A stretch of 64,000 nucleotides of DNA. Source: Cyclobacteriaceae bacterium (GTDB lineage: Bacteria; Bacteroidota; Bacteroidia; Cytophagales; Cyclobacteriaceae). The notes beneath the pieces were generated by a model. The model searched no databases and was not told where the DNA came from. It saw only the letters and a list, made by a program, of their open reading frames with translations. The stretch covers positions 62,001 to 126,000 of the forward strand of contig JAEUTZ010000017.1 in the NCBI GenBank assembly GCA_016787725.1, read 5' to 3'. A program made the position numbers and the translations under genes. Each line of letters starts with the position of its first letter. The first letter of the stretch is position 1. Shown one piece after another: positions 18,150 through 34,946 of the stretch.

Positions 18150-19949
18150 ATGAAAGCCCCGATTCAAAAGATCCTGCTGGTGTTGGCCATTGTAGGATGT
18201 TCTGCACCAAAAGAGAAAATTCCGGATACCCCCATGTCCCAGGAGCTGCAAAAGAAAGTAGTGATTTACCAAATGATGACCCGCCTGTTTGGTAATACGA
18301 AAACAAACAATACCACCCATGGAACGCTGAACGAGAACGGAGTTGGAAAATTCGCTGACATTAATGAAACGGCTCTGAAAGAAATAAAAGAACTGGGAGT
18401 AACTCACGTTTGGTATACCGGGGTGCTTGAGCACGCATTGATGACCGATTATACTGCTGAAGGAATTCCACTCGATGATGCCGATGTCGTGAAAGGCCGG
18501 GCGGGTTCACCGTATTCTATTAAGGATTATTACGATGTCAATCCTGATCTTGCAACGGATGTGAAGAATCGGATGGCGGAGTTCGGGCAATTGGTAGCAC
18601 GCACGCATGCAGCGGGCATGAAGGTGTTGATTGACTTTGTTCCGAATCATGTGGCCCGTGGTTACAAGAGTGATGTGAAACCTGCAGGAGTCGCTGACCT
18701 GGGTGAAGGCGATGATACCGCTGTGGCCTTTAAACCTTCCAACAACTTCTATTACTTACCGGGAAAGGCCTTTCAGCCTCCGGTTCGCTACAATCCATTG
18801 GGTCAACAGTCCACAACCACTGAAGATAAAAAGTTTTCGGAAATACCTGCCAAGGCTACTGGCAACGATCAGTTCACGGCTACTCCATCCATCGATGATT
18901 GGTTTGAGTCGGTCAAGTTGAACTATGGAGTGGATATTTTGGATAATCGTAAGACCTATTTTGAGCCGGTGCCCAACACCTGGGAAAAGATGCGTGACAT
19001 TCTGGTGTATTGGGCCGGTAAAAATGTAGATGGTTTCCGGTGCGACATGGCAGAAATGGTTCCGGTTGAATTTTGGAGTTGGGTCATTCCGCAGGTGAAG
19101 GCAGTTAACCCTGAGATCGTTTTTATAGCAGAAATTTACAATCCTGCGCAATACCGAAATTACATTCAAACGGGCCGGTTTGACTATCTCTACGACAAGG
19201 TGCAATTGTATGATACACTGCGGCTCCTGATTAACGGTCACTCGAATACGGTACACCTTGCTGAGATTCAGAAAAGTTTAGCGGGCATCAATCATAAGAT
19301 GCTGCATTTTCTGGAGAACCACGATGAGCAGCGAATCGCTTCGCCCTTCTTTGCCGGTGATTATTGGAAGGCGGTACCGGCCATGGTGATCAGTGCCACG
19401 CTTGATCAGGCTCCTATCATGATTTACTTTGGCCAAGAGGTAGGTGAGCCCGGAGCCGGAGCCGAAGGATTTAGTGGGGAGGACGGACGCACCACGATTT
19501 ATGATTATTGGGGTGTACCAGAGCATCAGAAATGGGTAAATGGTGGGAAGTACGATGGTGGAGGATTGAGTGACGATCAAAAAGCCTTGCGTCAATTTTA
19601 TGGCGATATCCTTTTTTTCGCAGCTTCGAATCCTGCCATCACCCAGGGCGACTACTTTGATTTAACCGAATTCAACCAACAGCAAGGTAATATCAATCAC
19701 CGCATTCATGTTTTTGCACGCGTATCGGGTGAAGAGCGTCTGGTGATCCTTTCGGGATTTAATGACAAACTGATGCGGGTGAAAATCCAATTATCGGAAG
19801 AAGTGAAGCAAGCATTTCAGTTTGCACCGGGCGAAGAATACCTTGGTCGGGATTTGCTTCGCAGTGGTCAGGACATTGGACTTGATTCGACCGGTACCTT
19901 TGAAGTGGATTTACCCGCGTATGCGGCTTATATTTTTAAGATTAAATAA
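18150..19949 (+). CDS. GH13 alpha-amylase-family lipoprotein (first of operon)
   Basis: A 599-residue glycoside hydrolase of the GH13 barrel type. The leader ends in a lipobox at Cys17 (LAIVGC), so the enzyme is lipid-anchored in the envelope, perhaps on the surface. Catalytic regions are complete: VLIDFVPNHVA (region I), VDGFRCDMAEM with nucleophile Asp299, FIAEIYNPAQY with acid Glu328, and FLENHDEQR with Asp392. It acts on alpha-1,4/1,6-glucans or maltodextrins; product size is not predictable by eye. It opens a six-gene operon: the next gene starts two bases after its stop. Beyond residue 530 a short beta-sandwich domain C is visible. Confidence 0.92.
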   Translation: MKAPIQKILLVLAIVGCSAPKEKIPDTPMSQELQKKVVIYQMMTRLFGNTKTNNTTHGTLNENGVGKFADINETALKEIKELGVTHVWYTGVLEHALMTDYTAEGIPLDDADVVKGRAGSPYSIKDYYDVNPDLATDVKNRMAEFGQLVARTHAAGMKVLIDFVPNHVARGYKSDVKPAGVADLGEGDDTAVAFKPSNNFYYLPGKAFQPPVRYNPLGQQSTTTEDKKFSEIPAKATGNDQFTATPSIDDWFESVKLNYGVDILDNRKTYFEPVPNTWEKMRDILVYWAGKNVDGFRCDMAEMVPVEFWSWVIPQVKAVNPEIVFIAEIYNPAQYRNYIQTGRFDYLYDKVQLYDTLRLLINGHSNTVHLAEIQKSLAGINHKMLHFLENHDEQRIASPFFAGDYWKAVPAMVISATLDQAPIMIYFGQEVGEPGAGAEGFSGEDGRTTIYDYWGVPEHQKWVNGGKYDGGGLSDDQKALRQFYGDILFFAASNPAITQGDYFDLTEFNQQQGNINHRIHVFARVSGEERLVILSGFNDKLMRVKIQLSEEVKQAFQFAPGEEYLGRDLLRSGQDIGLDSTGTFEVDLPAYAAYIFKIK

Positions 19950-19951
19950 CC

Positions 19952-21499
19952 ATGCGCAAGAGTTCCTGTGTATTAATTGTATTACTGTTACTCTTCTCCT
20001 GCGGGCAACCGCAAAAGGTAACAAAGTGGCCTTATGGTGTCAATTACGAGATCTTCGTTCGATCGTTTGCCGATAGCAATGGCGATGGCATTGGCGACTT
20101 CAACGGAATTACCGCACGATTGGATTATTTACAGGACCTTGGTGTGGGTGGCATTTGGTTGATGCCCATTATGCCTTCACCGACTTATCATAAATATGAT
20201 GTGGTTGATTACAAAGCGGTTGATGCCGAGTATGGCACCCAGGAAGATTTCAAAAAATTAGTAGCCGAGGCACACAAACGCGGAATCCGGATCCTCGTGG
20301 ATTTGATTTTAAATCATACCGGTTCCGATCACCCCTGGTTTCAAAGCGCGAGCAAAGATCCGAACAGCCCCTATCGCGACTACTATGTTTGGGCTGATAA
20401 GGATTCCATCCGCGAACAGATATCAAAAAAGTCAATTTCCCTGGATTCGGATAATATCACCCAATGGCACGCAGTGAATAGCGACACGCTTGCCGAACAC
20501 TATTATGGTTTTTTCTGGGGCGGTATGCCCGACTTGAATTTTGATAATCCGAAAGTTAAGCAGGAGTTTATTGACATCGGCAAATATTGGCTGGCCGAGA
20601 TGAATGTGGATGGATTTCGGTTGGATGCAGCCAAGCACATCTTTCCTACCGAACGGGCAACCGACAATCATGCGATCTGGGTTTGGTTTCGCGAGGAGAT
20701 GCAAAAGATAAAACCGGAAGTTTACCTGGTAGGCGAAGTCTGGTCCAAAGCCGAGGATGTGGCACCGTATCTGCAAGGGTTGCCCGCTTTATTTAATTTT
20801 GATATGGGCTATGCCATCACATCGGTAGTACAAGCTGGGCAGGATACGATTGGATTAATCAAAAAATACAAAGAGATCAGCGATTTTTATAATCAAAGTA
20901 CAAACGAGTATATCGATGCTGTCTTTTTGAAAAATCATGATCAGAACCGGATAGCCAGTGAGTTGGAGAATAATCTGCAGAAGGCCCGGATAGCCGCAGG
21001 GATTTTGTTAACCCTACCAGGTACACCTTATATTTATTATGGCGAAGAGCTGGGAATGTTTGGTAAAAAGCCAGACGAATATATACGCGAGCCTTTCCTC
21101 TGGGCACCCGGTAAGGAAGACGCAATGCAGACACGCTGGGAAGAACCTCGTTACAGCACGGATCAAACAGTAATTCCTTATTCAGTACAGAAGGACGATC
21201 CCAATTCGATTTATAATTTTTACACAGACTTTATCCGTTATCGCAATAGTAGCATGATCTTAACCTACGGGGATATTGAAAATTCGCCATTACAGGTAAG
21301 GGAACTGGTGAGTTTTATTCGCAGGCAGGGGGAGGACAAGCGGTTGGTGATACACAATGTATCCGATGTTGAAGTTACTATCAGAATGGAGAACGAGTTA
21401 GCAGGGTTTGATGAGGTTGAGTTTCTGACCGGGGGAGAACTTAATGCCCATGAAACGGAGTGGACAATACCGGCATACACATCAATAATTATTAAATAA
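19952..21499 (+). CDS. GH13 alpha-glucosidase/amylase-family lipoprotein (second of operon)
   Basis: A 515-residue GH13 enzyme with a lipobox at Cys17 (LLFSC). Motifs are FADSNGDGIGDFNGI, ILVDLILNHTGSDHPWF, VDGFRLDAAKHIF (nucleophile Asp225), LVGEVWSKAEDV (acid Glu262), FLKNHDQNRIAS (Asp330) and LPGTPYIYYGEELGM. The early DSNGDGIGD is the calcium-site motif of the oligo-1,6-glucosidase and neopullulanase side of the family. Together with the preceding lipoprotein it should cut external alpha-glucan to small sugars such as maltose or glucose in the envelope. It lies between the first GH13 gene (two-base gap) and glgE (21-base gap). Confidence 0.93.
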   Translation: MRKSSCVLIVLLLLFSCGQPQKVTKWPYGVNYEIFVRSFADSNGDGIGDFNGITARLDYLQDLGVGGIWLMPIMPSPTYHKYDVVDYKAVDAEYGTQEDFKKLVAEAHKRGIRILVDLILNHTGSDHPWFQSASKDPNSPYRDYYVWADKDSIREQISKKSISLDSDNITQWHAVNSDTLAEHYYGFFWGGMPDLNFDNPKVKQEFIDIGKYWLAEMNVDGFRLDAAKHIFPTERATDNHAIWVWFREEMQKIKPEVYLVGEVWSKAEDVAPYLQGLPALFNFDMGYAITSVVQAGQDTIGLIKKYKEISDFYNQSTNEYIDAVFLKNHDQNRIASELENNLQKARIAAGILLTLPGTPYIYYGEELGMFGKKPDEYIREPFLWAPGKEDAMQTRWEEPRYSTDQTVIPYSVQKDDPNSIYNFYTDFIRYRNSSMILTYGDIENSPLQVRELVSFIRRQGEDKRLVIHNVSDVEVTIRMENELAGFDEVEFLTGGELNAHETEWTIPAYTSIIIK

Positions 21500-21520: not shown

Positions 21521-23467
21521 ATGATAAAAGGAAAATCACGGGTCATTATTGAAACTGTACAACCACTTGTAGAGGGTGGGTTATACCCGGCTAAGCGAAC
21601 TGCAGGTGAACGTGTAGATGTTTCCGCTGCCATTTTTGGCGATGGCCATGACCATATTCGGGCGGAAGTGTTGTTTAAAAAGGAAGGAGCTGCTGCCTGG
21701 CAACGGGTAGAAATGACTCCCACCTTTAATGATGAATGGAAGGCATCCTTTTATGTAACGGAGCAAGGTTTTTATGTTTACACGATTCAAGCCTGGGTCG
21801 ATCACTTCGATACCTGGTATGACGGCTTTAAGAAGAAAGCCAACGCAAAGATTGATGTAACTGTAGAATTGATGGAAGGTGCGATTTTGTTGCGCACCCT
21901 GGGTGAATCGAATCCGGAATTGATAGCCTATGCGCGGAGGTTAGAGGATAAAAGCCGATATCAAACGGCTATTGACCTGGTACTCAGTAAAGAGTTTGAG
22001 GAAGTAGTTCATCATAATCCGCTTCGGATTTATGAAACGAAGCTGAATTCTGAAATCAAGATAAAGGTGGAACATGCCAAAGCAAATTTCAGCGCATGGT
22101 ATGAATTTTTTCCCCGATCCGCTTCTCTCGAATCAGGAAAACACGGCACCTTTCAGGATTGCATTCGCCTGCTGCCGCGAATAGCGGCCATGGGTTTTGA
22201 TGTGCTGTATTTTCCACCCATACACCCCATCGGTAAAGTAAACCGGAAAGGGAAGAACAACAATGTGCGTTCACAACCGGGCGAACCTGGATCGCCTTGG
22301 GCCATCGGCAGCGATGAGGGTGGTCATAAATCCATCTTGCCGGCATTGGGTACGTTGGCTGATTTTAATAAGCTGGTGGTTGAAGCAAAAAAAATGGGGA
22401 TCGATGTAGCGATGGACATTGCGTTCCAATGCGCACCTGATCATCCCTATGTGAAGGAACATCCGGAGTGGTTTAAGCAACGGCCGGATGGCACTATACA
22501 ATATGCGGAAAACCCCCCTAAAAAGTATCAGGATATCTATCCTTTTAATTTTGAGAATGATAATTGGCAAGGCTTGTGGGACGAACTCAAATCGGTTTTT
22601 CTTTTTTGGATAGAACAAGGTGTAAAAATTTTCCGGGTCGATAACCCGCATACCAAGCCTATTCCGTTTTGGCACTGGGTAATTTTAGAAATTCAGAAAG
22701 ACCATCCGGATATTATCTTTTTATCGGAGGCTTTTACAAGACCCAAGATCATGGCCTCGTTGGCGAAGGTCGGGTTCACCCAATCGTACACTTATTTTAC
22801 CTGGCGAGTTTCTAAGCAGGAATTGATTGACTATGTGAATGAACTCGTATTCGGCCCATCGCGCAATTACTTTCGGCCCAATTTCTGGCCGAATACCCCA
22901 GATATCCTGCCATACCACCTTCAGCATCAGGGTGAAAACATCTTTATTCTGCGGTATGCCATGGCCGCAACGTTGTCGTCCAACTATGGGGTATATGGCC
23001 CGGCCTATGAGTTTTATGAAAACACCCCCATTGAAGGCCGAGAGGAGTACTTTAACTCAGAGAAGTATGAAGTACGCCATTACGATTGGAAACGTACCAA
23101 TCGCATGACGGATATTATGAGTTTGCTGAATAAGATCCGTAAAGAGAACGAGGCGATGCAATCGACCTGGAATATTCAGTTTTGCCCGATCGAGAATAAT
23201 CAGATACTGGCCTACCTGAAGGCAACCGATGACTTGAAGAACATTATTCTGGTGGTCGTTAATCTTGACCCACAACGTGGCCAAAGCGGATTTGTACAAC
23301 TCCCTAAAGATCGATTAAAACTGACCGATAAAATCAATATCAAAGTTCATGACCTGATTACGGATGAGCATTACACCTGGACCCAGGAATGGAACTATGT
23401 GGATTTGAATCCGAACAAGATGCCGTTTCATGTTCTCAAACTGGAAATTCACGAGTCAAATATGTAA
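21521..23467 (+). CDS. glgE: Alpha-1,4-glucan:maltose-1-phosphate maltosyltransferase
   Basis: A 648-residue cytosolic GH13_3 enzyme that transfers maltose from maltose 1-phosphate to the end of an alpha-1,4-glucan. The N-terminal beta-sandwich (residues about 10-110) is followed by a helical domain and the barrel. Diagnostic motifs are FPPIHPIGKVNRKGKNN, AFQCAPDHPYV, FRVDNPHTKPIPFWHW (nucleophile Asp374), FLSEAFTRPKIM (acid Glu403) and FWPNTPDILPYHLQ (third carboxylate). All three are present, so the enzyme should be active. It is followed by the TreS-maltokinase gene with three bases between, which supplies its substrate. Confidence 0.96.
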   Translation: MIKGKSRVIIETVQPLVEGGLYPAKRTAGERVDVSAAIFGDGHDHIRAEVLFKKEGAAAWQRVEMTPTFNDEWKASFYVTEQGFYVYTIQAWVDHFDTWYDGFKKKANAKIDVTVELMEGAILLRTLGESNPELIAYARRLEDKSRYQTAIDLVLSKEFEEVVHHNPLRIYETKLNSEIKIKVEHAKANFSAWYEFFPRSASLESGKHGTFQDCIRLLPRIAAMGFDVLYFPPIHPIGKVNRKGKNNNVRSQPGEPGSPWAIGSDEGGHKSILPALGTLADFNKLVVEAKKMGIDVAMDIAFQCAPDHPYVKEHPEWFKQRPDGTIQYAENPPKKYQDIYPFNFENDNWQGLWDELKSVFLFWIEQGVKIFRVDNPHTKPIPFWHWVILEIQKDHPDIIFLSEAFTRPKIMASLAKVGFTQSYTYFTWRVSKQELIDYVNELVFGPSRNYFRPNFWPNTPDILPYHLQHQGENIFILRYAMAATLSSNYGVYGPAYEFYENTPIEGREEYFNSEKYEVRHYDWKRTNRMTDIMSLLNKIRKENEAMQSTWNIQFCPIENNQILAYLKATDDLKNIILVVVNLDPQRGQSGFVQLPKDRLKLTDKINIKVHDLITDEHYTWTQEWNYVDLNPNKMPFHVLKLEIHESNM

Positions 23468-23470
23468 TTC

Positions 23471-26400
23471 ATGGCCGCACCCTCAAAAAATAGAGATCCA
23501 CTTTGGTTTAAAGATGCCATCATTTACGAAGTAAGTGTACGGGCATTTTATGACAGCAATGGAGATGGGATTGGAGATTTTCAAGGCCTGATACAGAAAT
23601 TGGATTACCTGGAAGATTTAGGAATTACTGCCATCTGGTTGTTGCCGTTTTTTCCTTCGCCTTTGAAAGATGATGGCTTTGATGTGACCGAATATTGCGA
23701 CATCCATCCGGATTATGGAACGCTGGCAGACTTTAAGGTCTTTTTAAAGGAAGCGCATCGAAGGGGAATTCGGGTTATTACCGAGCTAGTGCTCAATCAC
23801 ACATCTGATCAACACCCGTGGTTTCAGAAATCGCGCAAAGCAAGACCCGGCTCGCGCTACAAGGATTATTATGTCTGGAGCGATACCCAGGAAAAGTATA
23901 AGGAGGCACGCATCATGTTTACCGATGACGAACCTTCTAACTGGTCGTGGGACAATGAAGCCAAGGCCTACTATTGGCATCGGTTTTACCGGCACCAACC
24001 GGAATTGAATTTTGAAAACCCTGAGGTCCAGCTGGAAATCATTAAGATAGTTGACTTTTGGATGAAGATCGGTGTTGATGGATTTCGTTTGGCATCGGTA
24101 CCCTTTCTGTTTGAAGAAGAAGGTACCAATTGTGAAAACCTGCCGCAAACACATGCCTTCCTCAAGCGCCTCCGTGGACACATCGACAAGCACTATGAGG
24201 ATCGGATCCTGATGGCGGAAGCTAATCTTTGGCCCGAAGATGCCGCCCAGTATTTCGGGGAAGGTCAGGAGTGTCATATGAATTTCCACTATCCGTTGAT
24301 GCCCCGGCTTTACCTGGGGTTGCGCACGGAAGATTCCTATCCGATCATTGACATCCTGGAACAAACGCCTTCAACACCACTCAACAGTCAGTGGGCTTTG
24401 TTCTTACGCAACCACGATGAGATTGGCCTTGAGATGGTGACAGAGGAAGAAAAGGATTACCTCTTTAAAGCCTATGCCAATGACCCACACACCAAGCACA
24501 ACCTGGGCATTCGCAGACGATTGGCGCCCCTTTTAAATAATGACCGGAGAAAGATCGAGTTGTTATACGCATTGTTGTTTTCCTTGCCGGGTACCCCGGT
24601 ACTTTATTATGGCGATGAGATCGGGATGGGCGACAACATTTATCTGGGTGATCGGTTTGGTGTTCGTACTCCCATGCAATGGAACATGAACATCAATGCC
24701 GGCTTTTCTTCGGCCAATCCTCAAAAACTTTACCTACCGGTGATTACAGACCCGGTGTACCGGTATGAATCGGTAAACGTGGCCACCCAGGATGAGAATC
24801 CATCCTCGTTAATGTGGTGGATTAAAAATGTGCTGGCCATGCGCAAGCGCCTTAACCTGTTTGGCCGGGGCGATATTAAGTTTATTGACAGCAGCAATTC
24901 AAAAGTGCTTTGCTTCTCACGTACCTATCAAAAGCAAACTATTATCGTGGTGGCCAACCTTTCACAATTTTCACAAGCTACCACATTGGATCTGAAAGAA
25001 TTTAAAGATTGCGACATTACAGAAGTATTCAGTCAAAACCGGTTTATGAGTGTTGCGGAAGGAGACTACGCCATCACGATTGGACCCTATGGGTACTTCT
25101 GGTTTCAGGCAGACGCCTCTGAGAAAAAGGAACAAGGAGGCAGCTCCAATGAATTGTTCCTATTTAAAGCCGAGCTTTCGTGGGAGCGTTTGTTCTCCAA
25201 TTACAATGAAGTACGGGTATTGGAGCGAAAGGTGTTACAACCGTTCATGAAAAAGTGTCGATGGTTTGGCGGGAAAGCCCGCGCCATCAGTAAGATGAGC
25301 ATTCACAAGGTAATTCCGTTGAAGGTGGAAGGAGAGACTCACTACCTCACCATCATTGAAGTACATTATGTGCAGCGGTTGCCCGAGCTATATTTTCTGC
25401 CGATGTGCTTTATTCCTTCGGACAGTATTTTTGATAAGGTGGAGTATACCGCGCAAAGTGTGGTGAGCCGGGCCGAGATTCAGGGAAAAGTTGGTTTTAT
25501 TTTGGATAGCAGTTACCACAAAGGGTTCCGCGATTATTTGTTCTCCAGTATGGATCGTAAGGTACGAGTGAAGGATGAAGATGGAACCCTGGAATTTAAC
25601 AGCAGTGTGTTTACCAAGTTAAATGCCGAACGTGTTGAGTCGAAAATCCTGAAAGCGGATCAGAGCAACACCGCCATTATCTACAACGACCAATACTTTT
25701 TCAAATTCTATCGCAAGATTGAGCAAGAGATTAACCCCGATCTGGAGATTGTGAGATTTCTGTCAGAGAATACTTCATTCCGCAATGCGCCCAAGTATGC
25801 TGGAAGTATTGAATTCAAGGATGACTCCGGAAAGACCATTGTTTTTGGATTATTGCAGGAGAAGGTTGAGAACCAGGGGGATGCCTGGATCATGACCATC
25901 GACTCGGTGGGACGGTTTTATGAGCGTGTGATGGCAAAGGCAAAAAAAGAAAAATTACCTACCCTGGTAAATAAAGCCGCCATCAAATTTGAAGAAGCAC
26001 CGGAATTGATTCAGGAATTTATTGGCCGTGGATTTTATGAACGCGTTGTGCGGTTGGGCCAACGGACTGCCGAAATGCACATGGCGTTGGCTTCAGACAA
26101 AACAAACCCGGCCTTTGCACCTGAGTACTTTAATGCCAACTATCAACGTTCGCTCTATTCTGCCTTGCGCAAACTGACTCGCGATCGGTTTAAGCTGCTG
26201 GAACAATCCATGGGTAAGCTGAAAGATGAAACCCAGGAACTAGCACGGAAAGTATTGGCGATGGAAGACAGCGTGCTGGCGTGTTTCAGTGAGGTTTATC
26301 AAGTAAAGATCAATGCGATCAAAACCCGCATCCATGGCGATTACCACCTGGGTCAGGTGTTGTTCACAGGAAAGGACTTCATCATAATCGATTTTGAGGG

Positions 26401-26803
26401 TGAGCCGGGCTTTAGTTTCAGCGAGCGGAGGCTCAAGAAAAACCCCATGAAAGATGTGGCCGGAATGATGCGCTCTTTTCACTATGCGGCTTTTGGCAAA
26501 ATCCTGTTGAACGAAAACTATCGGGAAAAAGACATTGAGTTTTTGATCCAATGGGCGGAGCAGTGGCAACACTATGTGAGCCGGTTTTACCTGGGTGCCT
26601 ATTTGGAACGATTAGGGTTGGAGAGTAACTTAAGCGACCAGGATGAAATCCTGATTCGTACCTACCTGATCGAGAAAGCGATTTATGAATTGGGATATGA
26701 ACTAAATGGAAGGCCCGATTGGGTAAACATTCCACTGCGCGGGATTTATTACCATATGAACCGGTATTTCCAAGCCAAGGAAGAACGAAAAAAGAAAAAC
26801 TAA
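23471..26803 (+). CDS. treS: Trehalose synthase-maltokinase fusion with degenerate TreS nucleophile
   Basis: A 1110-residue two-domain protein. Residues 1-555 are a TreS (GH13_16) module: DSNGDGIGDFQGL, LVLNHTSDQHPWFQ, NENPEVQLE-type segment, GTNCENLPQTHAFLKRLR, Glu250 in LMAEANLWPEDA, Asp316 in FLRNHDEIGLEMVT, and DEIGMGDNIYLGDR. The nucleophile position is abnormal: the usual GFRLDAVPYLF reads GFRLASVPFLF, with Ala208 for Asp. Residues about 575-1110 are a maltokinase: CRWFGGKAR, NTAIIYNDQYFFKFYRKIE, IHGDYHLGQVLF, DFEGEPG and DVAGMMRSFHYAAF, all intact. The protein should phosphorylate maltose to maltose 1-phosphate for GlgE; whether it interconverts trehalose and maltose is doubtful. It overlaps no neighbour and is four bases from glgB. 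Confidence 0.95.
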   Translation: MAAPSKNRDPLWFKDAIIYEVSVRAFYDSNGDGIGDFQGLIQKLDYLEDLGITAIWLLPFFPSPLKDDGFDVTEYCDIHPDYGTLADFKVFLKEAHRRGIRVITELVLNHTSDQHPWFQKSRKARPGSRYKDYYVWSDTQEKYKEARIMFTDDEPSNWSWDNEAKAYYWHRFYRHQPELNFENPEVQLEIIKIVDFWMKIGVDGFRLASVPFLFEEEGTNCENLPQTHAFLKRLRGHIDKHYEDRILMAEANLWPEDAAQYFGEGQECHMNFHYPLMPRLYLGLRTEDSYPIIDILEQTPSTPLNSQWALFLRNHDEIGLEMVTEEEKDYLFKAYANDPHTKHNLGIRRRLAPLLNNDRRKIELLYALLFSLPGTPVLYYGDEIGMGDNIYLGDRFGVRTPMQWNMNINAGFSSANPQKLYLPVITDPVYRYESVNVATQDENPSSLMWWIKNVLAMRKRLNLFGRGDIKFIDSSNSKVLCFSRTYQKQTIIVVANLSQFSQATTLDLKEFKDCDITEVFSQNRFMSVAEGDYAITIGPYGYFWFQADASEKKEQGGSSNELFLFKAELSWERLFSNYNEVRVLERKVLQPFMKKCRWFGGKARAISKMSIHKVIPLKVEGETHYLTIIEVHYVQRLPELYFLPMCFIPSDSIFDKVEYTAQSVVSRAEIQGKVGFILDSSYHKGFRDYLFSSMDRKVRVKDEDGTLEFNSSVFTKLNAERVESKILKADQSNTAIIYNDQYFFKFYRKIEQEINPDLEIVRFLSENTSFRNAPKYAGSIEFKDDSGKTIVFGLLQEKVENQGDAWIMTIDSVGRFYERVMAKAKKEKLPTLVNKAAIKFEEAPELIQEFIGRGFYERVVRLGQRTAEMHMALASDKTNPAFAPEYFNANYQRSLYSALRKLTRDRFKLLEQSMGKLKDETQELARKVLAMEDSVLACFSEVYQVKINAIKTRIHGDYHLGQVLFTGKDFIIIDFEGEPGFSFSERRLKKNPMKDVAGMMRSFHYAAFGKILLNENYREKDIEFLIQWAEQWQHYVSRFYLGAYLERLGLESNLSDQDEILIRTYLIEKAIYELGYELNGRPDWVNIPLRGIYYHMNRYFQAKEERKKKN

Positions 26804-26807
26804 AACT

Positions 26808-28772
26808 ATGGGCAAAAAAGCAACTACCAAAATCAAGGCTGACGAGCACGATAGCTTTAGTCTTCTCACCGACTTCGATATCCACTTGTTTAGAAGCGGA
26901 AAGCATTTTAAGCTCTATGAAAAATTAGGGGCTCACCTCGCTACATTTAAGGAACAAGCCGGTACGTACTTTGCGGTTTGGGCTCCGAATGCCAGGCAGG
27001 TTTCGGTCATTGGCAATTTTAATCACTGGAATAGCAACGATAATAAACTGTCTCCGCGATGGGATGAATCCGGAATCTGGGAAGGATTCTTTCCGGGGAT
27101 AGGCAAAGGAGAGGCCTACAAGTATGCCATTCACTCCAATACCGGTGAGTACCTAGAGAAGGCCGATCCATTTGCATTCTATGCTGAGGTGGCACCCCGT
27201 ACAGCTTCTATTATTTGGGATCATACCTATTCCTGGCGGGATAGCAATTGGTTATCAGAACGGAAAAAATCCACCGGTAAGCCTAAGCCATACTCAGTCT
27301 ATGAGGTACATGCAGGCAGTTGGCGTAGAAAACCGGAAGATGGGAATCGTTCCCTCTCGTATAAGGAGATGGCCGTAGAAATGGTAAACTATGTAAAGGA
27401 AAATGGATTCACACACGTGGAGTTTTTACCGGTCATGGAGCATCCGTTCTTTGGGTCGTGGGGGTACCAGCTTACCGGATACTATGCACCCACCAGCCGC
27501 TTTGGCGAACCACAGGAATTTATGGAATTGGTGGACGCGTTTCATGCAGCTGATATTGGGGTAATTCTGGATTGGGTACCCTCTCATTTTCCGGGTGATG
27601 CCCATGGATTATATAAGTTTGATGGAACCCATTTGTACGAACATGCTGACCCCCGCAAGGGATTTCATCCGGATTGGAGCAGTTATATCTATAATTATGG
27701 ACGGGAAGAAGTTCGGTCTTTTTTGATCAGCAATGCCTTGTTCTGGATCGATGTATTTCATGCGGATGGATTGCGGGTGGATGCCGTAGCCTCCATGCTT
27801 TATCTGGATTATTCGCGCAAAGCGGGTGAGTGGATTCCAAACGAATATGGTGGAAATGAAAATATTGAGGCCATCAAATTCCTGAAGGAATTCAACGAAG
27901 TAGTTTATGGCAACTTTCCCGATGTAGTTACCATTGCGGAAGAATCCACAGCTTGGTCCGGTGTTTCTAAACCTACATTTTTAGGGGGCTTGGGATTTGG
28001 ACAGAAGTGGATGATGGGCTGGATGCATGATACCTTACATTATTTTAAGCTCGATCCGATTCACCGGAAGTACCATCAGAATGAAATTACCTTTAGCATC
28101 ATGTATGCCTTTACTGAAAATTTCATGTTGCCACTATCGCACGATGAAGTGGTGCATGGTAAAGGATCATTGCTGGGGCGAATGCCCGGAGATGAATGGC
28201 GCAGGTTTGCCAATTTGCGGTTAATGTATGCGTATATGTTTACCCATCCGGGTACAAAATTGCTGTTCATGGGTGGCGAATTTGGCCAGTCGGCAGAGTG
28301 GAGTCATGATCGGAGTTTGGATTGGCATCTGTTGGACTATGGCCCCCATCAAGGGATACTCACGTTGATCAAAGATTTGAATATGCTCTATAAAACAGAG
28401 CCTGCATGTTATCAATTTCCATTTGACAATAGGGGATTTGAATGGGTCGATTATTCGGACCAGGAAAATAGCGTTATCATTTACATGCGGAAAGGTGAAA
28501 AACGGGAAGATGCATTAATGGTAGTTTGTAACTTCACACCTGAAACAAGACAATTGTATCGCATCGGTGTTCCCTTCCGGGGCACGTACCACGAAGTATT
28601 TAATTCAGATGATTTGAAATACGGTGGGAGTGGAGTTCTTAATCAGGGACTGTTATACACTACCCCGGTAAAATATCACGGTAAGGATTATTCAGTTCCA
28701 ATAACACTACCTCCTCTGGCCCTATCGGTTATTAAATTAGTTGAAGAAAAAGCTGAATTTGATTTGGAGTGA
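26808..28772 (+). CDS. glgB: 1,4-alpha-glucan branching enzyme
   Basis: A 654-residue GH13_9 enzyme that makes alpha-1,6 branches. It has one N-terminal CBM48 module (YFAVWAPNARQVSVIGNFNH) rather than two, the barrel motifs VILDWVPSHFP, GLRVDAVASML (Asp325), TIAEESTAWSGVS (Glu378) and PLSHDEVVHGKGS (Asp446), and the branching-enzyme mark FLPVMEHPFFGSWGYQ. It acts on the linear glucan made by GlgE. The gene begins four bases after the TreS-maltokinase stop and ends 29 bases before the GH57 gene. Confidence 0.97.
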   Translation: MGKKATTKIKADEHDSFSLLTDFDIHLFRSGKHFKLYEKLGAHLATFKEQAGTYFAVWAPNARQVSVIGNFNHWNSNDNKLSPRWDESGIWEGFFPGIGKGEAYKYAIHSNTGEYLEKADPFAFYAEVAPRTASIIWDHTYSWRDSNWLSERKKSTGKPKPYSVYEVHAGSWRRKPEDGNRSLSYKEMAVEMVNYVKENGFTHVEFLPVMEHPFFGSWGYQLTGYYAPTSRFGEPQEFMELVDAFHAADIGVILDWVPSHFPGDAHGLYKFDGTHLYEHADPRKGFHPDWSSYIYNYGREEVRSFLISNALFWIDVFHADGLRVDAVASMLYLDYSRKAGEWIPNEYGGNENIEAIKFLKEFNEVVYGNFPDVVTIAEESTAWSGVSKPTFLGGLGFGQKWMMGWMHDTLHYFKLDPIHRKYHQNEITFSIMYAFTENFMLPLSHDEVVHGKGSLLGRMPGDEWRRFANLRLMYAYMFTHPGTKLLFMGGEFGQSAEWSHDRSLDWHLLDYGPHQGILTLIKDLNMLYKTEPACYQFPFDNRGFEWVDYSDQENSVIIYMRKGEKREDALMVVCNFTPETRQLYRIGVPFRGTYHEVFNSDDLKYGGSGVLNQGLLYTTPVKYHGKDYSVPITLPPLALSVIKLVEEKAEFDLE

Positions 28773-28801: not shown

Positions 28802-31219
28802 ATGCCCGGCACACCTAAGAATAAATACGTTTGTATTCACGGACACTTTTATCAACCGCCTCGCGAAAATGCCTGGCTGGAAGTGATCGAGTTGCAAGAC
28901 TCAGCCCATCCCTATCATGATTGGAATGAACGGATTACTGCAGAGTGCTACGAGCCTAACGCTACTTCCAGAATTTTGGATGAGGGTGGCGTAATTAAGA
29001 ACATCGTTAACAATTATTCACGCATCAGTTTCAATTTTGGACCTACCTTACTCTCCTGGATGGAATTGTATTCACCGGAAACGTATCACGCCATTTTGGA
29101 GGCGGATCGAGAAAGTATTAAAAACTTTGGTGGGCATGGTTCTGCAGTAGCGCAAGTGTACAACCACATCATTATGCCTCTGGCCAACCGGGCAGATAAA
29201 GAAACGCAGGTGTTGTGGGGCATTCGGGATTTTGAAAACCGGTTTAAGCGTAAGCCAGAAGGCATGTGGTTGGCGGAAACTGCAGTGGATACGGAAACAC
29301 TGGAAATACTAGCTGCCAACAATATAAAATTTACAATCCTCGCGCCCCGTCAGGCGAAAGCGGTTCGTAAATTGAAGGCGGAAGACTGGATTGAGGTCAA
29401 CGATCGTTCAATTGATACCACAAAAGCCTATCAATATAAGTTACCCAGTGGCAATTCCATTGTAGTATTCTTTTATGAAGGGGATATCTCACAAGCCATC
29501 GCCTTTAATGGGTTATTAAATGATGGTAAGAGGTTTGCTGATCGGTTACTGAATGTGATTGATCAGGGAGATTCAGAGCCACAATTAGTGCATGTGGCCA
29601 CGGATGGTGAAACATATGGGCATCACCACAAGCATGGCGAAATGGCATTGGCTTTTTGCCTGGATTATATTGAGCAGCAAGGTCGCGCCAGATTGACCAA
29701 CTATGCCCAATTTATGGAATTGTTTCCTCCGGAAAATGAAGCCCAGATTATTGAAGACAGTTCATGGAGTTGTGTTCATGGAGTGGAACGGTGGCGGGCT
29801 AACTGCGGTTGTAATACAGGTAAGCCCGGGTGGCATCAGCATTGGCGTAAGCCTTTACGGGAGGCTCTCGATTGGCTCCGGGACGAGGTAAAAGAGATTT
29901 TTGAGCGGGAAGCAATCAAAGTATTAAGAGATCCATGGAAAGCCCGGAATGAATACATCAACGTAGTGTTGAAGCGGAGCGATGATAACATTAGGCGTTT
30001 TTTGAAGGTGCATGCTCTCAACGAATCCTCTTCTTCAAATCGAATTATGCGCATCATGGAAATGCAACGGCATGCCATGCTGATGTATACCAGTTGTGGT
30101 TGGTTTTTTGATGAAATTTCGGGCATTGAAACAACCCAGGTAATGCAGTATGCGTGTCGTGTTATCCAGTTGGCCAATCAGATTGGAGAAGTAGACCTGG
30201 AAGCGGAGTTTATCAGACGGTTGGAGCAAGCCCCCAGCAATGTGTCTGCCTATGAACATGGAGCTGCCGTTTATGTAAAGGAAGTATTGCCTTCCCGTAC
30301 GAACTTACAACGTGTAGGAATTCACTTTGCGGTTTCGTCAGTTTTTGAAGACGAACCTGAGTCCCTTACTATTTTCAACTACAGTACTTCCAGCGAGGCC
30401 TTCATTAAAAAGGAGGCTGGTGAGCAAAAGCTGGTATTGGGTATTACCAATGTTAAGTCAATGGTCACCCGGTCTCAAAAGAAATTTGCCTTTGCCGTCA
30501 TTTACCTGGGTAAGCACAATATCATTGGAAACATTTCCCTGGACATGGAACCCGAAAAGTTTTCGGGTATGCAACTCCGGATGGTGAAAGCGTTTGAGGA
30601 AGGTCGGTTGGGAGATGTAATTGGACTAATGCAAACTTATTTTGGTCCGGACAAATACACCATCTGGCATTTGTTTCAGGATGAAAAGCGAAAGATTTTG
30701 GATATGATCTCGCAGGAAAGTATGATGGAGTTGGAGAACTCGCTGCGCAAAAGTTATAACCAGGATTATCCACTCATCAATGCGTTGGCCAATAACAATA
30801 TCCCGATCCCGAATACCTACAGAACCACCTTTGAATATGTATTGAATGCTGATTTGGTGAAGATTTTTCAATCGGAGAAGATCAACATTAAGGAGATGGA
30901 GCGGATTGTTGCTGAACTGGCCCGGTGGAACCTGAAGATTGAAGATCCGCGTAAGCTATCCCGTTTGGCAGGAGAAAGTATTTTCAAAGAATTAAAGCGA
31001 ATCAGCAGCGAACGGGAAAACGTAAAACGCGTCCAACGACTAAACCGGATGTTTCCTTTGCTGGAGAAGTTTAAACTGGAACCAAATTTTCACAAGAGTC
31101 AAAATCTGTACTTTGAAATTTCCATGGAAAATAAGAGCCGCCAGGTTCAGGAACTGGAGGTAGAATGGGTGGAGCAATTTAAGTTGCTTGGAACCAACCT
31201 GGGTGTTAAAATTGAATGA
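28802..31219 (+). CDS. GH57 family glycoside hydrolase with DUF3536 region
   Basis: An 805-residue cytosolic protein without a signal peptide. The GH57 barrel opens with VCIHGHFYQPPRENAWL; the expected nucleophile is Glu159 in GMWLAETAVDTE and the acid Asp268 in VATDGETYGHHHKHGEMA. The segment SSWSCVHGVERWRANCGC and the long helical second half (from about residue 300) match the DUF3536 extension. GH57 includes alpha-amylases, branching enzymes and 4-alpha-glucanotransferases; this subgroup is not characterised to my knowledge. Being last in the GlgE operon, it may trim or re-branch the glucan. Its stop codon directly abuts the stop codon of the convergent glucokinase gene. Confidence 0.9.
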   Translation: MPGTPKNKYVCIHGHFYQPPRENAWLEVIELQDSAHPYHDWNERITAECYEPNATSRILDEGGVIKNIVNNYSRISFNFGPTLLSWMELYSPETYHAILEADRESIKNFGGHGSAVAQVYNHIIMPLANRADKETQVLWGIRDFENRFKRKPEGMWLAETAVDTETLEILAANNIKFTILAPRQAKAVRKLKAEDWIEVNDRSIDTTKAYQYKLPSGNSIVVFFYEGDISQAIAFNGLLNDGKRFADRLLNVIDQGDSEPQLVHVATDGETYGHHHKHGEMALAFCLDYIEQQGRARLTNYAQFMELFPPENEAQIIEDSSWSCVHGVERWRANCGCNTGKPGWHQHWRKPLREALDWLRDEVKEIFEREAIKVLRDPWKARNEYINVVLKRSDDNIRRFLKVHALNESSSSNRIMRIMEMQRHAMLMYTSCGWFFDEISGIETTQVMQYACRVIQLANQIGEVDLEAEFIRRLEQAPSNVSAYEHGAAVYVKEVLPSRTNLQRVGIHFAVSSVFEDEPESLTIFNYSTSSEAFIKKEAGEQKLVLGITNVKSMVTRSQKKFAFAVIYLGKHNIIGNISLDMEPEKFSGMQLRMVKAFEEGRLGDVIGLMQTYFGPDKYTIWHLFQDEKRKILDMISQESMMELENSLRKSYNQDYPLINALANNNIPIPNTYRTTFEYVLNADLVKIFQSEKINIKEMERIVAELARWNLKIEDPRKLSRLAGESIFKELKRISSERENVKRVQRLNRMFPLLEKFKLEPNFHKSQNLYFEISMENKSRQVQELEVEWVEQFKLLGTNLGVKIE

Positions 31220-32203
31220 TTAAACCAACTGGGCTTTTGCCTGTTGTTTGTCCAGGTAATCCCAAACCAGGCTACTCGCACCCAATATGGGAGCTGCCTG
31301 GTTTTGCATGGCAGAAGGCAAGACCTTTATTTTTCCACGGAAGAGGGGCATCAGGTTAGCTTCCATGTGTTTGATTGTGGGCCTGAAAATCAAATCACCC
31401 GCCATGGACAGACCACCAAATAAGAAGATGGCTTCCGGATCAGTATGGACAACGGTTTCGGCCAATTTCATTCCTAAAATTCGCCCGGTGTATTCAAACG
31501 CTTCCATGGCAACCACATCGCCCCGGTGCGCAGCCTCTGAAATCATTTTCGTATTGAGGTCTTCAAAACTGATGCCCCGCAATTCACTTGGCTCAAGATG
31601 ATCGGCAAGCAATTTGTAAACAGTACGTTTAATACCTGTTGCTGATACATATGTTTCAAGGCATCCGCGCTTCCCGCAATTGCAATATCTGCCATTGGGA
31701 TTTACAGCGGTGTGACCAACTTCTCCGGCTATTCCGTGATGTCCATTGAGCAATACTCCCCCACAAACAAAGCCGCTCCCTAATCCGGTACCGAGGGTAA
31801 TTACGACAAAGTCCTTCATGTGTTTGGCGTTGCCATAGATCATTTCACCCACCGCTGCTGCATTGGCATCGTTGGTGAGAATACAGGGCACACCAAACTC
31901 TTCATTAAACATTCGCGCCAAGGGAAGCACTCCCTTCCATTTCAGGTTAGTAGCGCGTTCAATGTTGCCAGTATAATAATTGCCATTGGCGGCACCCACA
32001 CCAATCCCTACAATGCGTGTATTGGGTGGAAGCTCCTGGATTCCCTTACGGAGGGCATCGGCCATGGCATCAAAATATCCTTGAAACTCTTCGTACTGAG
32101 TTGTTGGGATGTTGCCCTGGTGGAGCACATTTCCTTGCCGGTCAACAATTCCATACTTGGTGTTCGTCCCTCCGATATCAATGCCGATGGTCAAATCTTT
32201 CAT
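31220..32203 (-). CDS. glk: ROK family glucokinase
   Basis: A 327-residue cytosolic sugar kinase: the phosphate-binding GIDIGGTNTKYGIVD, NDANAAAVGE with the catalytic Asp, VITLGTGLGSGF, and the ROK zinc site GHTAVNPNGRYCNCGKRGC followed by LETYVS. It phosphorylates glucose (possibly other hexoses) released from alpha-glucan. It is the last gene of a pgi-pfkA-glk run, nine bases after pfkA. There is no DNA-binding N-terminus, so it is an enzyme and not a ROK repressor. Confidence 0.93.
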   Translation of the reverse strand: MKDLTIGIDIGGTNTKYGIVDRQGNVLHQGNIPTTQYEEFQGYFDAMADALRKGIQELPPNTRIVGIGVGAANGNYYTGNIERATNLKWKGVLPLARMFNEEFGVPCILTNDANAAAVGEMIYGNAKHMKDFVVITLGTGLGSGFVCGGVLLNGHHGIAGEVGHTAVNPNGRYCNCGKRGCLETYVSATGIKRTVYKLLADHLEPSELRGISFEDLNTKMISEAAHRGDVVAMEAFEYTGRILGMKLAETVVHTDPEAIFLFGGLSMAGDLIFRPTIKHMEANLMPLFRGKIKVLPSAMQNQAAPILGASSLVWDYLDKQQAKAQLV

Positions 32204-32212
32204 GCTGTACGA

Positions 32213-33196
32213 TTAGATGGAAAGAATTTTTGCAATGCGCAAGGACTCACTATCGATTTCGTGCTGGTGATTAATGATAGTAGAAAAGTTGTTATACACG
32301 ATTATATTATTTCGTATGCCAACCATAACATCTTTTTCCCCTTTCAGCAATCCTTCCACGGCCGCTACACCCATTTTGCTGGCTAATACCCGGTCAAAGT
32401 AGGTAGGCGTGCCACCTCGTTGCAAATGGCCAAGGATGGTCACCTTAATGTCGAAGTAATTATTGCGCTCGGAGAACTTTTTGGCTAACTCCATGGCGCC
32501 ACCCAGCTTACTTCCTTCGGCAACTACCACCAGACTCGATTTCTTATTCGTCTTTCCGCCCTCATCTAATTTATGAAAAAGATCATCCAACGTCATATTT
32601 TCTTCGGGGATGATGGTGGCTACTGCACCTCCTGCAATTCCGCAATTAATAGCAATATAACCCGAATTACGCCCCATTACCTCAATAAAGAACAACCGGT
32701 TGTGGGAGATGGCCGTATCCCGGATTTTATCAATGGCCTCAACGGCAGTATTGGTAGCTGTATCGTATCCAATTGTATAGTCAGTTCCTGCAAGATCATT
32801 ATCTATTGTTCCAGGAATACAAACCGCGGGAATGGAATACTCTTCGTAGAATTTGTGGAGTCCTGTAAAAGTGCCATCACCACCAATGGCAACCAATCCA
32901 TCAATCCCATGCTTTTTCAGATTTTGAAATGCCTTTTCTCGTCCTTCTTTCGTTCTGAACTCCTGACTTCTGGCAGATTTGAGGATGGTACCACCGCGTT
33001 GAATAATGTTTCCTACTGAGCGCGCCCCTAGCTTTACAATATCTCCATCAATCATGCCTTCATATCCCTGCATGATTCCGTAAACTTCTTTTTTGTAGTA
33101 GATAGCACTTCGAACAACAGCCCGTAGTGCTGCGTTCATCCCAGGAGCATCTCCACCGGAGGTGAAGACTCCTATCTTAGATATTTTTGGTTCCAT
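32213..33196 (-). CDS. pfkA: ATP-dependent 6-phosphofructokinase
   Basis: A 327-residue enzyme of the bacterial PfkA type. GVFTSGGDAPGMNAALR binds ATP, AIGGDGTFTGLHK has the glycine typical of ATP rather than pyrophosphate users, PGTIDNDLAGTDYTIGYDTA carries the catalytic Asp, and FIEVMGRNSGYIA and HLQRGGTPTYFDR bind fructose 6-phosphate. It commits hexose to glycolysis. It lies between pgi (59 bases upstream) and glk (nine bases downstream). Confidence 0.97.
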   Translation of the reverse strand: MEPKISKIGVFTSGGDAPGMNAALRAVVRSAIYYKKEVYGIMQGYEGMIDGDIVKLGARSVGNIIQRGGTILKSARSQEFRTKEGREKAFQNLKKHGIDGLVAIGGDGTFTGLHKFYEEYSIPAVCIPGTIDNDLAGTDYTIGYDTATNTAVEAIDKIRDTAISHNRLFFIEVMGRNSGYIAINCGIAGGAVATIIPEENMTLDDLFHKLDEGGKTNKKSSLVVVAEGSKLGGAMELAKKFSERNNYFDIKVTILGHLQRGGTPTYFDRVLASKMGVAAVEGLLKGEKDVMVGIRNNIIVYNNFSTIINHQHEIDSESLRIAKILSI

Positions 33197-33255
33197 TCGT
33201 TAAGCCGAAGGACCAAAAATACGGGATAGGAGGGTTTTTACAAGGAATGTTCAGG

Positions 33256-34908
33256 TTATTCAGATTTCAATCGTTTGAAATAATTGATCAACCCGTTGGT
33301 GGACCCATCGTGTGTGGTAATGGTTGATTCGCTCGTTAATTCAGGTAGTATCTTTTTAGCCAACACCTTACCTAATTCAACTCCCCATTGATCGAAACTA
33401 AAGATATTCCAGATCACTCCCTGCACGAAGATTTTATGTTCATACAAGGCAATCAATGTGCCCAAGGTATGGGGTGTTAGTTTCTTAAATAAGATTGAGT
33501 TGGTGGGCCTGTTGCCTGAAAACACCCGAAAGGGTAAATGGAACTGGATTTCTTCACTCTTCATTCCAGCGGCCCGCAATTCTTCTTCAACCATTTCCTC
33601 TGTCTTACCGATCATCAAGGCTTCCGTTTGTGCAAAGAAGTTAGACAGGAGTTTTACATGATGATCTCCGATTGAATTTTGAGATTGAGCAGGGGCAAGA
33701 AAGTCGCATGGAATTAGCTTGGTACCTTGATGAATCAATTGATAGAAGGCATGTTGACCATTCGTACCCGGTTCGCCCCAAATGATGGGCCCGGTTTGAT
33801 ACAGCGTAGGTTGGCCCTGGCGGTCTACCGACTTGCCATTGCTTTCCATATTGCCCTGTTGAAAATAGGCAGCAAAACGATGCAAGTACTGGTCGTACGG
33901 TAGGATGGCTTCCGAATGGGCATCAAAAAAATTAGTATACCAGATTCCTAGCACGGCCAGAATCACAGGTATATTCTTATCAAAGGGTTCGTTCCGGAAG
34001 TGATGATCGGCATCATGAGCGCCTTCCAATAATTGAATGAAGTTATCATAGCCAATGGTACAAGCGATGGAAAGCCCGATGGAGGACCAAAGTGAATACC
34101 GGCCACCCACCCAATCCCAAAAGACAAACATATTTTCAGGAGCAATTCCAAAATTGGTGACCGCCTTTGTATTTGTGGATACAGCCACAAAATGTTTTGC
34201 AACTTCTCCTTTGCCTAATGTTTTATCGTGAAACCACTTCTTTGCCGATTCTGCATTCGTCATGGTTTCCTGTGTGGTAAAAGTCTTTGAGGCTATGATA
34301 AACAAAGTTGTTTCCGGATCCAGATGGCGGACACTTTCGGCTAGATGGGTCCCATCCACATTGGAAACAAAGTGGGGCTTGATGGAACCGTGATAGGGAC
34401 GCAAGGCTTCCGTAACCATCAGGGGGCCAAGGTCAGAACCACCAATGCCAATGTTGACAATATCGGTAATTCGTTTTCCCGTATACCCCTTCCATTCACC
34501 TGTAAGCAGCTTTTCAGAGAATGCCTTTATTTGAGCCAGGACATTGTTCACTAACGGCATCACATCTTCTCCATCAACATAAATGGGTGTGTTAGCCCGG
34601 TTCCGCAACGCGATGTGTAAAACCGATCGGTGCTCAGTCTGATTGATCTTATCTCCCCGAAACATCATTTCTATGGCATCCTTCAATGAAACTTCTTCTG
34701 CCAATTCTAAAAGGTGATCAAGTGTTTCTTGGGTGATGATGTTTTTGGAGAAATCAACTAAAATGTCATTGAGCATTAAGGTAAATTTCTCAAACCTATT
34801 TGGGTCTTCCTGAAACAGGTCGCGCATATGTACGGCTTGCATGGTCAGGAAATGGGCAGTTAATTTTTGCCAGGCATTTGTTTCGGTTGGGTTGATTTTC
34901 GGGAGCAT
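33256..34908 (-). CDS. pgi: Glucose-6-phosphate isomerase
   Basis: A 550-residue isomerase of the long bacterial/eukaryotic type: [45 protein letters not shown], the catalytic Glu in ESNGKSV and the Lys in QWGVELGK. It interconverts glucose 6-phosphate and fructose 6-phosphate. I start it at ATG 34908 ([13 protein letters not shown]); the frame can be extended to a TTG at 34941, but a promoter box TAAATTTG overlaps that TTG, which makes the longer form unlikely. It is followed by pfkA and glk on the same strand, forming an upper-glycolysis run. Confidence 0.95.
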
Positions 34909-34938
34909 AGCGCGATGTACGGTGTCTTTCTTGGAAGA

Positions 34939-34946
34939 CAAATTTA
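34939..34946 (-). promoter_or_regulatory. Promoter -7 box of pgi
   Basis: TAAATTTG on the minus strand fits TAnnTTTG and lies about 30 bases before the ATG at 34908. It overlaps the alternative TTG codon and so decides the start. A good -33 element is not visible. Confidence 0.4.

Follow-up and report, generated by a model that had tools for sequence, protein, structure and literature searches.

The TreS-maltokinase fusion of the window

The window, a stretch of 64,000 nucleotides from a Cyclobacteriaceae bacterium (assembly GCA_016787725.1, contig JAEUTZ010000017.1, positions 62,001 to 126,000), contains a gene for a fusion of trehalose synthase (TreS) and maltokinase whose TreS half lacks the catalytic nucleophile. 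The gene (23471..26803, forward strand), defined by its open reading frame with translation and by family profiles, encodes a protein of 1110 amino acids. Its TreS-like half is formed by a GH13 barrel and a C-terminal beta domain (residues ~12-548; 23504..25114, forward strand), and residues 12-546 score 844 bits against the profile TIGR02456 (TreS, GH13_16), above the cut-off of 678.35. The maltokinase half comprises residues ~578-1092 (25202..26746, forward strand), which score 441 bits against TIGR02457 (putative maltokinase) with a cut-off of 375. The closest solved structures are those of TreS for the first half (5x7u, 813 bits), and of the maltokinases 4o7o, 5jy7_I, and 4u94 for the second.

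Residues 204-212 of the fusion read GFRLASVPF. According to the codon reading and the alignment, the site of the TreS nucleophile Asp is occupied by Ala208, encoded by GCA (24092..24094, forward strand) and followed by the codon TCG. The residue opposite Ala208 is an Asp in the TreS sequence of 5x7u, and the equivalent in the trehalose synthase DrTS is Asp209. The nucleophile Asp forms the covalent glucosyl intermediate in TreS. The codons of the general acid/base Glu250 (24218..24220, forward strand) and of the transition-state stabiliser Asp316 (24416..24418, forward strand) are kept. The maltokinase motifs HGDxHxGQ, IDFEGEP, and QSNT, and the Lys of FFKFYR, are present and align to 4o7o and 5jy7_I. 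The initial annotation of the locus, which described Ala208 with the codons GCA TCG next to preserved Glu250, Asp316, and maltokinase motifs, is thus borne out for the window protein, and the clade counts given below agree with it.

The kinase half looks intact, and is predicted to be a maltokinase. In the clade of nucleophile-less fusions described below, Asp957 and Asp974 are present in 57/57 sequences and Gln962 in 56/57. An AlphaFold model of the protein was calculated from an alignment of clade members only, which held the window protein together with 49 of the 66 pattern-scan loci (50 of 67 sequences). The model is of low confidence, with a mean predicted local distance difference test score (pLDDT) of 68 and weak active-site loops, and the pocket geometry was not drawn from it. 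At the level of the fold of the halves, residues 7-551 superpose on TreS structures, including chain 5jy7_H, and residues 583-1106 on the free maltokinase 4u94. Judged by its profiles and motifs, the protein is by descent a TreS-maltokinase fusion in which the defining feature of the TreS enzyme is missing. An appropriate name would be maltokinase with a predicted TreS-like pseudoenzyme domain, in place of trehalose synthase. However, TIGR02456 still scores the protein above its cut-off, so automatic annotation would name it trehalose synthase.

Distribution of the nucleophile loss and evolution of site 208

The homology search with the fusion protein covered 97 genomes, of which 59 are from the genus of the window organism, its own genome included. 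The TreS half of the fusion is present in 47 of the 59; one genome (G014) matches with part of the kinase half only, and 11 have no fusion. Asp is absent from site 208 in all 47 fusions of the genus whose TreS half could be read, those of the window and 46 others (Pro 25, Ala 15, Ser 6, Gly 1). A second genus of the family contributed two fusions, both with Pro instead of Asp. These 49 fusions were found by homology, and residue 208 played no part in their selection. The phylum was sampled through 93 genomes outside the family of the window organism with TreS above the cut-off, of which 45 were read, together with four from the homology search. Asp is present in 50/50 fusion loci read from other families, which represent 49 different genes since L059 and L138 are identical, and at the nucleophile site of three single-domain TreS-like proteins.

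A pattern scan of one genome per species from 84,980 species used a degenerate TreS motif with C or G at the second base of the site codon. It identified 66 stretches, all of which are TreS halves of orthologues with 58-91% identity to the query. Sixty-one of the loci extend into the kinase half, and the remaining five end at the locus edge. Their record titles name Cyclobacteriaceae, Cytophagales, Flammeovirgaceae, Fulvivirga, Chryseolinea, Bacteroidetes, or Bacteroidia; Chryseolinea, Fulvivirga, and Flammeovirgaceae all belong to Cytophagales. Chryseolinea serpens DSM 24574 and C. lacunae Jin1, which both have Pro at the site, are strains and not metagenome-assembled genomes. The pattern matched 44/48 of the clade loci that the homology search had retrieved, and a version of it adapted to Asp matched 42/50 of the Asp-bearing loci. 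Within the limits of the single TreS motif, which Asn, Glu, and other changes and TreS proteins with a different motif escape, the nucleophile loss looks confined to this group.

The loss is fixed across the clade, and is not a peculiarity of a single gene. The initial annotation had discounted a single read error, and the 47/47 genus and 2/2 sister-genus fusions without Asp uphold this. It had also raised the question of whether the Ala is clade-wide: the absence of Asp is, whereas the replacing residue varies. Clustering at 99% yielded 70 distinct nucleophile-less sequences, with Pro in 31, Ala in 27, Ser in 11, and Gly in one.

A tree was calculated, after removal of column 208, from 59 of the 70 distinct clade sequences (at least 850 amino acids) and 22 sequences hand-picked from the 51 Asp-bearing ones. 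The tree was built by a quick method with no bootstrapping, drew warnings of long branches among the Asp-bearing sequences, and does not by itself provide the direction of change. Sequences with and without Asp are split by one branch with a Shimodaira-Hasegawa-like approximate likelihood ratio test (SH-aLRT) value of 100, which indicates a single change between Asp and non-Asp. All residue states at site 208 taken together require 19 changes on the tree. Because Asp is found across TreS and GH13, it is regarded as the older state. Most likely, the Asp was lost once and the site then drifted among small residues. Site 208 ranks 56th in entropy among the 537 positions of the TreS half in the clade, and a high rank is expected for a position freed from its role.

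The remaining active site

The structure-function description of DrTS (PMC4257617) served as a guide to the active site, and positions were paired by motif. Hardly any residue of the -1 subsite or of its network varies within the clade: Asp67 (65/65), Glu105 (65/66), His110 (66/66), Arg206 (70/70), Arg313, His315, and Asp316 (68/68 each), and Arg395 (66/66). The gate residues Arg147, Glu222, and Asn252 are unchanged across the clade. The acid/base Glu250 is a Glu in 67/69 distinct clade sequences and an Asp in two (L089 and L116), which lie on two separate branches of the tree, so that the second catalytic residue has changed there. Position 253, corresponding to Gln254 of DrTS, is Leu or Met in 68/69 sequences, which speaks against an untouched pocket; Met also occurs there in 8/48 Asp-bearing fusions.

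The +1 subsite differs more. Position 149 is Met in 43/68 sequences and still Ile in 19/68, the Ala of position 209 is replaced by Ser or Asn in 69/70, and position 212 is Phe in 65/70, including the window protein, and Tyr in 5/70. Glu is replaced by Ser at position 317 in 3/68, and by Asp at position 321 in 11/68. Alanine mutants of the DrTS residues Tyr213 (position 212 here), Glu320, and Glu324 are described as inactive, and for Tyr213 the Ala mutant is the only one described (PMC4257617). The early-branching clade members L092, L117, and L132 have Ser in place of Glu317, the counterpart of Glu320 that is essential in DrTS, and retain Tyr212.

The 48 Asp-bearing fusions have 197 invariant sites, and 158 of these persist in 95% or more of the clade. 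Against this background, only 1/5 positions of the +1 subsite are kept to the same extent (P 0.006). In the -1 subsite, network, and gate 12/13 positions are kept, position 253 being left out of the count, which is not significantly above the background (P 0.23). The clade has preserved the closing gate together with the -1 glucose subsite, and its +1 subsite is eroded or altered. 6-TreAz is an analogue of trehalose. According to its title, PDB entry 8uqv, which contains a Mycobacterium tuberculosis TreS chain with Ala at the nucleophile position, is a complex with 6-TreAz. Retention of the -1 pocket favours a possible binding of sugar, and the Ala chain of 8uqv is consistent with it.

A nearby acid that could have taken over as nucleophile, as the initial annotation had considered, was looked for by sequence. 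Positions that are acidic in more than 90% of the clade and in less than 5% of the Asp-bearing fusions are only 77, 442, and 515, and none of them is in an active-site motif. Glu216 of derived clade members was rejected as a replacement, since it is also found in 9/50 Asp-bearing loci.

Conservation of the TreS barrel

The median identity within the clade is 80.8% for the barrel, 72.3% for the C-terminal beta domain, and 74.3% for the kinase half. The proportion of nonsynonymous differences (pN) of the barrel is below that of the kinase half in 1695/1711 clade pairs. However, at matched divergence of the kinase half, the barrel distance in the clade is 2.2-3.8 times that of Asp-bearing fusions, and 2.7-4.1 times in a smaller set. 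At matched GlgE divergence the factor is 1.7-3.0. This test uses raw amino-acid differences, many of its Asp-bearing pairs come from one family, and GlgB provides only three Asp-bearing pairs as a yardstick. Ratios of nonsynonymous to synonymous substitution rates (dN/dS) have limited use, because synonymous sites are saturated in most pairs and only 6, 8, and 5 clade pairs are usable; where measurable, the ratio for the barrel is very low (6 pairs only). Owing to this saturation, the matched-divergence test carries the conservation argument.

The median length of the TreS half is unchanged at 540 residues. Internal stops are absent from 46/47 genus matches; the remaining match, in genome G006, has a stop ~57 codons short of the end of the query, in the kinase half and close to a contig end. 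The constraint on the barrel is relaxed but still considerable, which fits a pseudoenzyme that has some role left.

The gene neighbourhood

The fusion gene is preceded by the gene of GlgE, a maltosyltransferase that uses maltose 1-phosphate (21521..23467, forward strand; PF11896, PF21702) and has kept its nucleophile Asp. It is followed by the gene of the GlgB branching enzyme (26808..28772, forward strand; NF003811, 967 bits, cut-off 741), so that the GlgE, maltokinase, and GlgB set of the GlgE pathway is adjacent at 21521-28772. The next gene of the presumed operon, directly downstream of GlgB, encodes a protein with GH57 and DUF3536 domains (28802..31219, forward strand; PF03065, PF12055). 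Ahead of GlgE are two GH13 amylase-like genes. The product of the first has 599 amino acids (18150..19949, forward strand; PF00128) and is a candidate source of maltose, and that of the second has 515 amino acids and a SusG-type C domain (19952..21499, forward strand; PF00128, PF23915). Both have, as judged by eye, a lipoprotein-type start and the full catalytic set of Asp, Glu, and Asp. On the reverse strand, genes for a ROK kinase, phosphofructokinase, and phosphoglucose isomerase (31220-34941) converge on the glycogen genes, and recur in several relatives.

The order GlgE, fusion, GlgB, GH57 is found in 16/16 clade regions that hold the fusion. The 599-residue GH13 gene is upstream in 14 of the 16 regions; it is missing in L190, and L204 is cut by a contig end. 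The 515-residue gene is present in 6/16. The nucleophile Asp of GlgE is found in 37/37 aligned rows, 17 from the clade, including the window, and 20 from Asp-bearing relatives. Three Asp-bearing regions have the arrangements GlgE-fusion-GlgB, GlgE-fusion, and fusion alone, and 20 further ones, fetched as 17-20 kb, contain GlgE in 18 cases and GlgB in three.

In genome G016, which is 95% complete and has no fusion by homology search, region L206 (C1:940000-952000) contains GlgB and GH57, and neither GlgE nor the fusion within the 12 kb read; it is possible that the middle of the operon was lost. Pontibacter belongs to the same taxonomic order as the window organism. TreY and TreZ are described in its corresponding locus as well, and 4-alpha-glucanotransferase activity has been attributed to its GH57 protein (PMC11206854). 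The GH57 protein of the window (28802-31219) is perhaps a relative of it.

Trehalose and maltose genes of the genome

The genome of the window organism is 99.99% complete. The search for a second TreS that the initial annotation had called for found none above the TIGR02456 cut-off of 678, either by homology or by profile. The next TreS-like matches in the genome are partial GH13 matches with at most 43% identity and at most 255 bits against TIGR02456, and the two nearest whole proteins score 281 and 337 bits, also below the cut-off. The genome contains no match to OtsA and no TreZ above cut-off, TreY and other trehalose routes not having been searched for; likewise, it contains no GlgC above cut-off, GlgM not having been searched for.

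OtsA is found above cut-off in 4/47 genomes with a nucleophile-less fusion versus 4/4 genomes of Asp-bearing relatives (P 0.0003), and TreZ in 1/47 versus 3/4 (P 0.0008). The association ignores relatedness and is therefore only suggestive, and for TreZ, which has many matches below the cut-off among those listed, only those above it were counted.

Another locus of the genome (L207, C20:74000-93900) encodes an MFS transporter, a MIP channel, a glycerol-kinase-like FGGY kinase, a GH13 protein, ROK and PfkB kinases, a beta-phosphoglucomutase (TIGR01990, 244 bits, cut-off 189), and a GH65 protein that matches the general family-65 model only. It reads as a locus for the catabolism of disaccharides, and perhaps also of glycerol.

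A putative maltose-fed GlgE pathway

We consider it likely that the fusion combines a maltokinase with a TreS pseudoenzyme, the latter retained as a scaffold and perhaps as a sugar sensor, in a putative pathway in which maltose feeds the kinase and GlgE and GlgB then produce glycogen. The TreS half would be unable to form the covalent glucosyl intermediate, and would thus not interconvert trehalose and maltose. It may have been retained for holding the kinase in its complex, and its intact -1 pocket may still bind a glucose unit and relay that state to the kinase. Maltose would be supplied by alpha-glucan breakdown by the adjoining amylase-like enzymes and by uptake. The kinase half would phosphorylate it, and the maltose 1-phosphate would be converted to glycogen by GlgE and GlgB.

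The step from trehalose to maltose is very probably gone, since there is no nucleophile, no replacement acid was found by sequence, and no OtsA, TreZ, or second TreS is above the cut-offs. The combination of gene order and active-site loss suggests that the clade builds glycogen from maltose rather than from trehalose. The MFS, GH65, and beta-phosphoglucomutase genes of locus L207 also count in favour of the overall interpretation. We infer from genes and alignments the loss of the isomerase, the working kinase, the role as scaffold or sensor, and the supply of maltose. The initial annotation had proposed that the TreS half is a scaffold or maltose-binding domain, and that the protein is only a maltokinase that cuts the usual trehalose link of the GlgE pathway. 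A scaffold or binding domain fits the conservation of the barrel, but maltose binding as such does not follow from the kept parts of the pocket, as the +1 subsite is altered. The cut trehalose link agrees with the sequence evidence for loss of the TreS step, and the protein may be only a maltokinase.

A role as scaffold or sensor is plausible because of the architecture of the mycobacterial TreS:Pep2 complex and the toxicity of maltose 1-phosphate. The TreS tetramer is described as the core of TreS:Pep2, in which Pep2 docks on the C-terminal domain of TreS with its ATP site near the interface (PMC6509496). Maltose 1-phosphate is reported to be a toxic compound whose synthesis has to be controlled (PMC4306142).

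Several observations weigh against this interpretation. According to the TreS:Pep2 report, TreS raised the activity of Pep2 in M. tuberculosis, but not that of M. smegmatis in vitro (PMC6509496). The pocket is not untouched, as Asp394 is less constant than its neighbours (60/66, with Gly in 6/66); conversely, the preservation of Glu250, Asp316, and most of the pocket exceeds what a mere scaffold would require. Four of the 47 clade genomes have OtsA, and one of these also TreZ, so that the missing trehalose synthesis is not universal. In the genome of the window organism, the gene of a TreF-type trehalase adjoins an MFS transporter gene (L208, C26:20000-30000), which suggests that trehalose enters the cell. 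The GH13 protein of locus L207 scores above the cut-off of the PRK10933 phosphotrehalase subfamily (555 versus 535) and below that of TreC. The GH65 protein of the same locus may be a maltose, trehalose, or kojibiose phosphorylase, which would make some trehalose metabolism possible.

The function left to the TreS half can be conceived more narrowly or more broadly. It may provide the fold, the oligomer, and the docking face of the kinase only, with a pocket that binds nothing of importance. The position of TreS as the core of the mycobacterial complex, with its C-terminal beta domain as the docking site (PMC6509496), the partly eased constraint on the barrel, and the retention of the -1, network, and gate positions at no more than background level are consistent with such a bare scaffold, which we regard as quite possible, at somewhat below an even chance. 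However, His110, Asp67, Arg395, His315, Asp316, Asn252, and Arg147 are invariant in the clade, and some of these residues touch the ligand in DrTS. Alternatively, the -1 pocket and gate might bind a sugar and in this way act as an on/off switch of the kinase half, with the output of toxic maltose 1-phosphate then set by the sugar supply. As the retention of the -1 pocket is not statistically above background, this sensor function is put forward tentatively, and we consider it less likely than not. If true, an enzyme of metabolism would have been converted, throughout a group of bacteria, into a domain that regulates the enzyme acting after it in the pathway.

Retaining glycosidases whose nucleophile has been mutated can run glycosynthase reactions. 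The TreS half could accordingly be imagined to keep another chemistry with an external nucleophile such as phosphate and beta-glucose 1-phosphate, for which the kept acid/base Glu250 and stabiliser Asp316 and the genomic beta-phosphoglucomutase and GH65 genes might be invoked. The many exchanges among Pro, Ala, Ser, and Gly at site 208 would hardly be tolerated by a shared new reaction, Glu250 has changed in two lineages, and the basic residues gained by the clade at positions 79, 129, 165, and 199 are in no catalytic motif, all of which makes such a chemistry very improbable. That the TreS half is a decaying relic in the process of being lost is scarcely more credible. For a given divergence of its partners, the barrel has indeed changed more in the clade than in Asp-bearing fusions, but the undiminished length of the TreS half, the reading frames free of internal stops in all but one genus match, the barrel identity of ~81%, and the very low dN/dS of the few measurable pairs contradict decay, and the clade spans fusions down to 58% identity to the query. 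A sequencing or assembly error was rejected: the loss is seen in 70 distinct sequences from many assemblies, including cultured strains, nothing was found in its favour, and its probability is negligible.

A maltokinase kept together with a TreS pseudoenzyme therefore stays the preferred interpretation. A clade that has preserved the gene neighbourhood and lost the TreS nucleophile points to a maltose-fed GlgE pathway, and provides a natural experiment on the non-catalytic service of the TreS body to maltokinase. The named strains C. serpens DSM 24574 and C. lacunae Jin1 make the question experimentally accessible; a literature search found no growth phenotype of Chryseolinea on maltose or trehalose.

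Comparison with known systems

No report of a nucleophile-less TreS-maltokinase fusion was found in the open-access literature, searched by titles and the beginnings of abstracts, with subscription journals mostly outside the search. GlgE pathways are described as starting either from trehalose via TreS or from GlgC-GlgM (PMC11046441). The TreS-Mak or TreS-Pep2 fusions of Estrella lausannensis, Pseudomonas aeruginosa, and other Bacteroidota resemble the window protein in domain order, in both halves scoring above the cut-offs, and in the nearby GlgE, in some cases accompanied by GlgB. Characterised TreS-Mak fusions are described as making maltose 1-phosphate from trehalose (PMC11046441). In contrast, the fusion of the window lacks the nucleophile, which the 49 Asp-bearing genes keep.

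Both halves of the window fusion align by sequence with the mycobacterial TreS:Pep2 complex (PDB 5jy7). However, the complex is formed by separate chains with an active TreS, whereas the window protein is fused and nucleophile-less. Chains of rBAT/SLC3A1, a GH13-like non-catalytic partner subunit of amino acid transporters, also match the TreS half by sequence. Unlike the window protein, rBAT is a subunit of a membrane transporter and is not fused to a kinase. Mycobacterium vanbaalenii and M. gilvum likewise have a maltokinase gene without a working TreS, and reportedly no treS gene was found in them (PMC2885305), whereas the clade of the window organism keeps the body of TreS.

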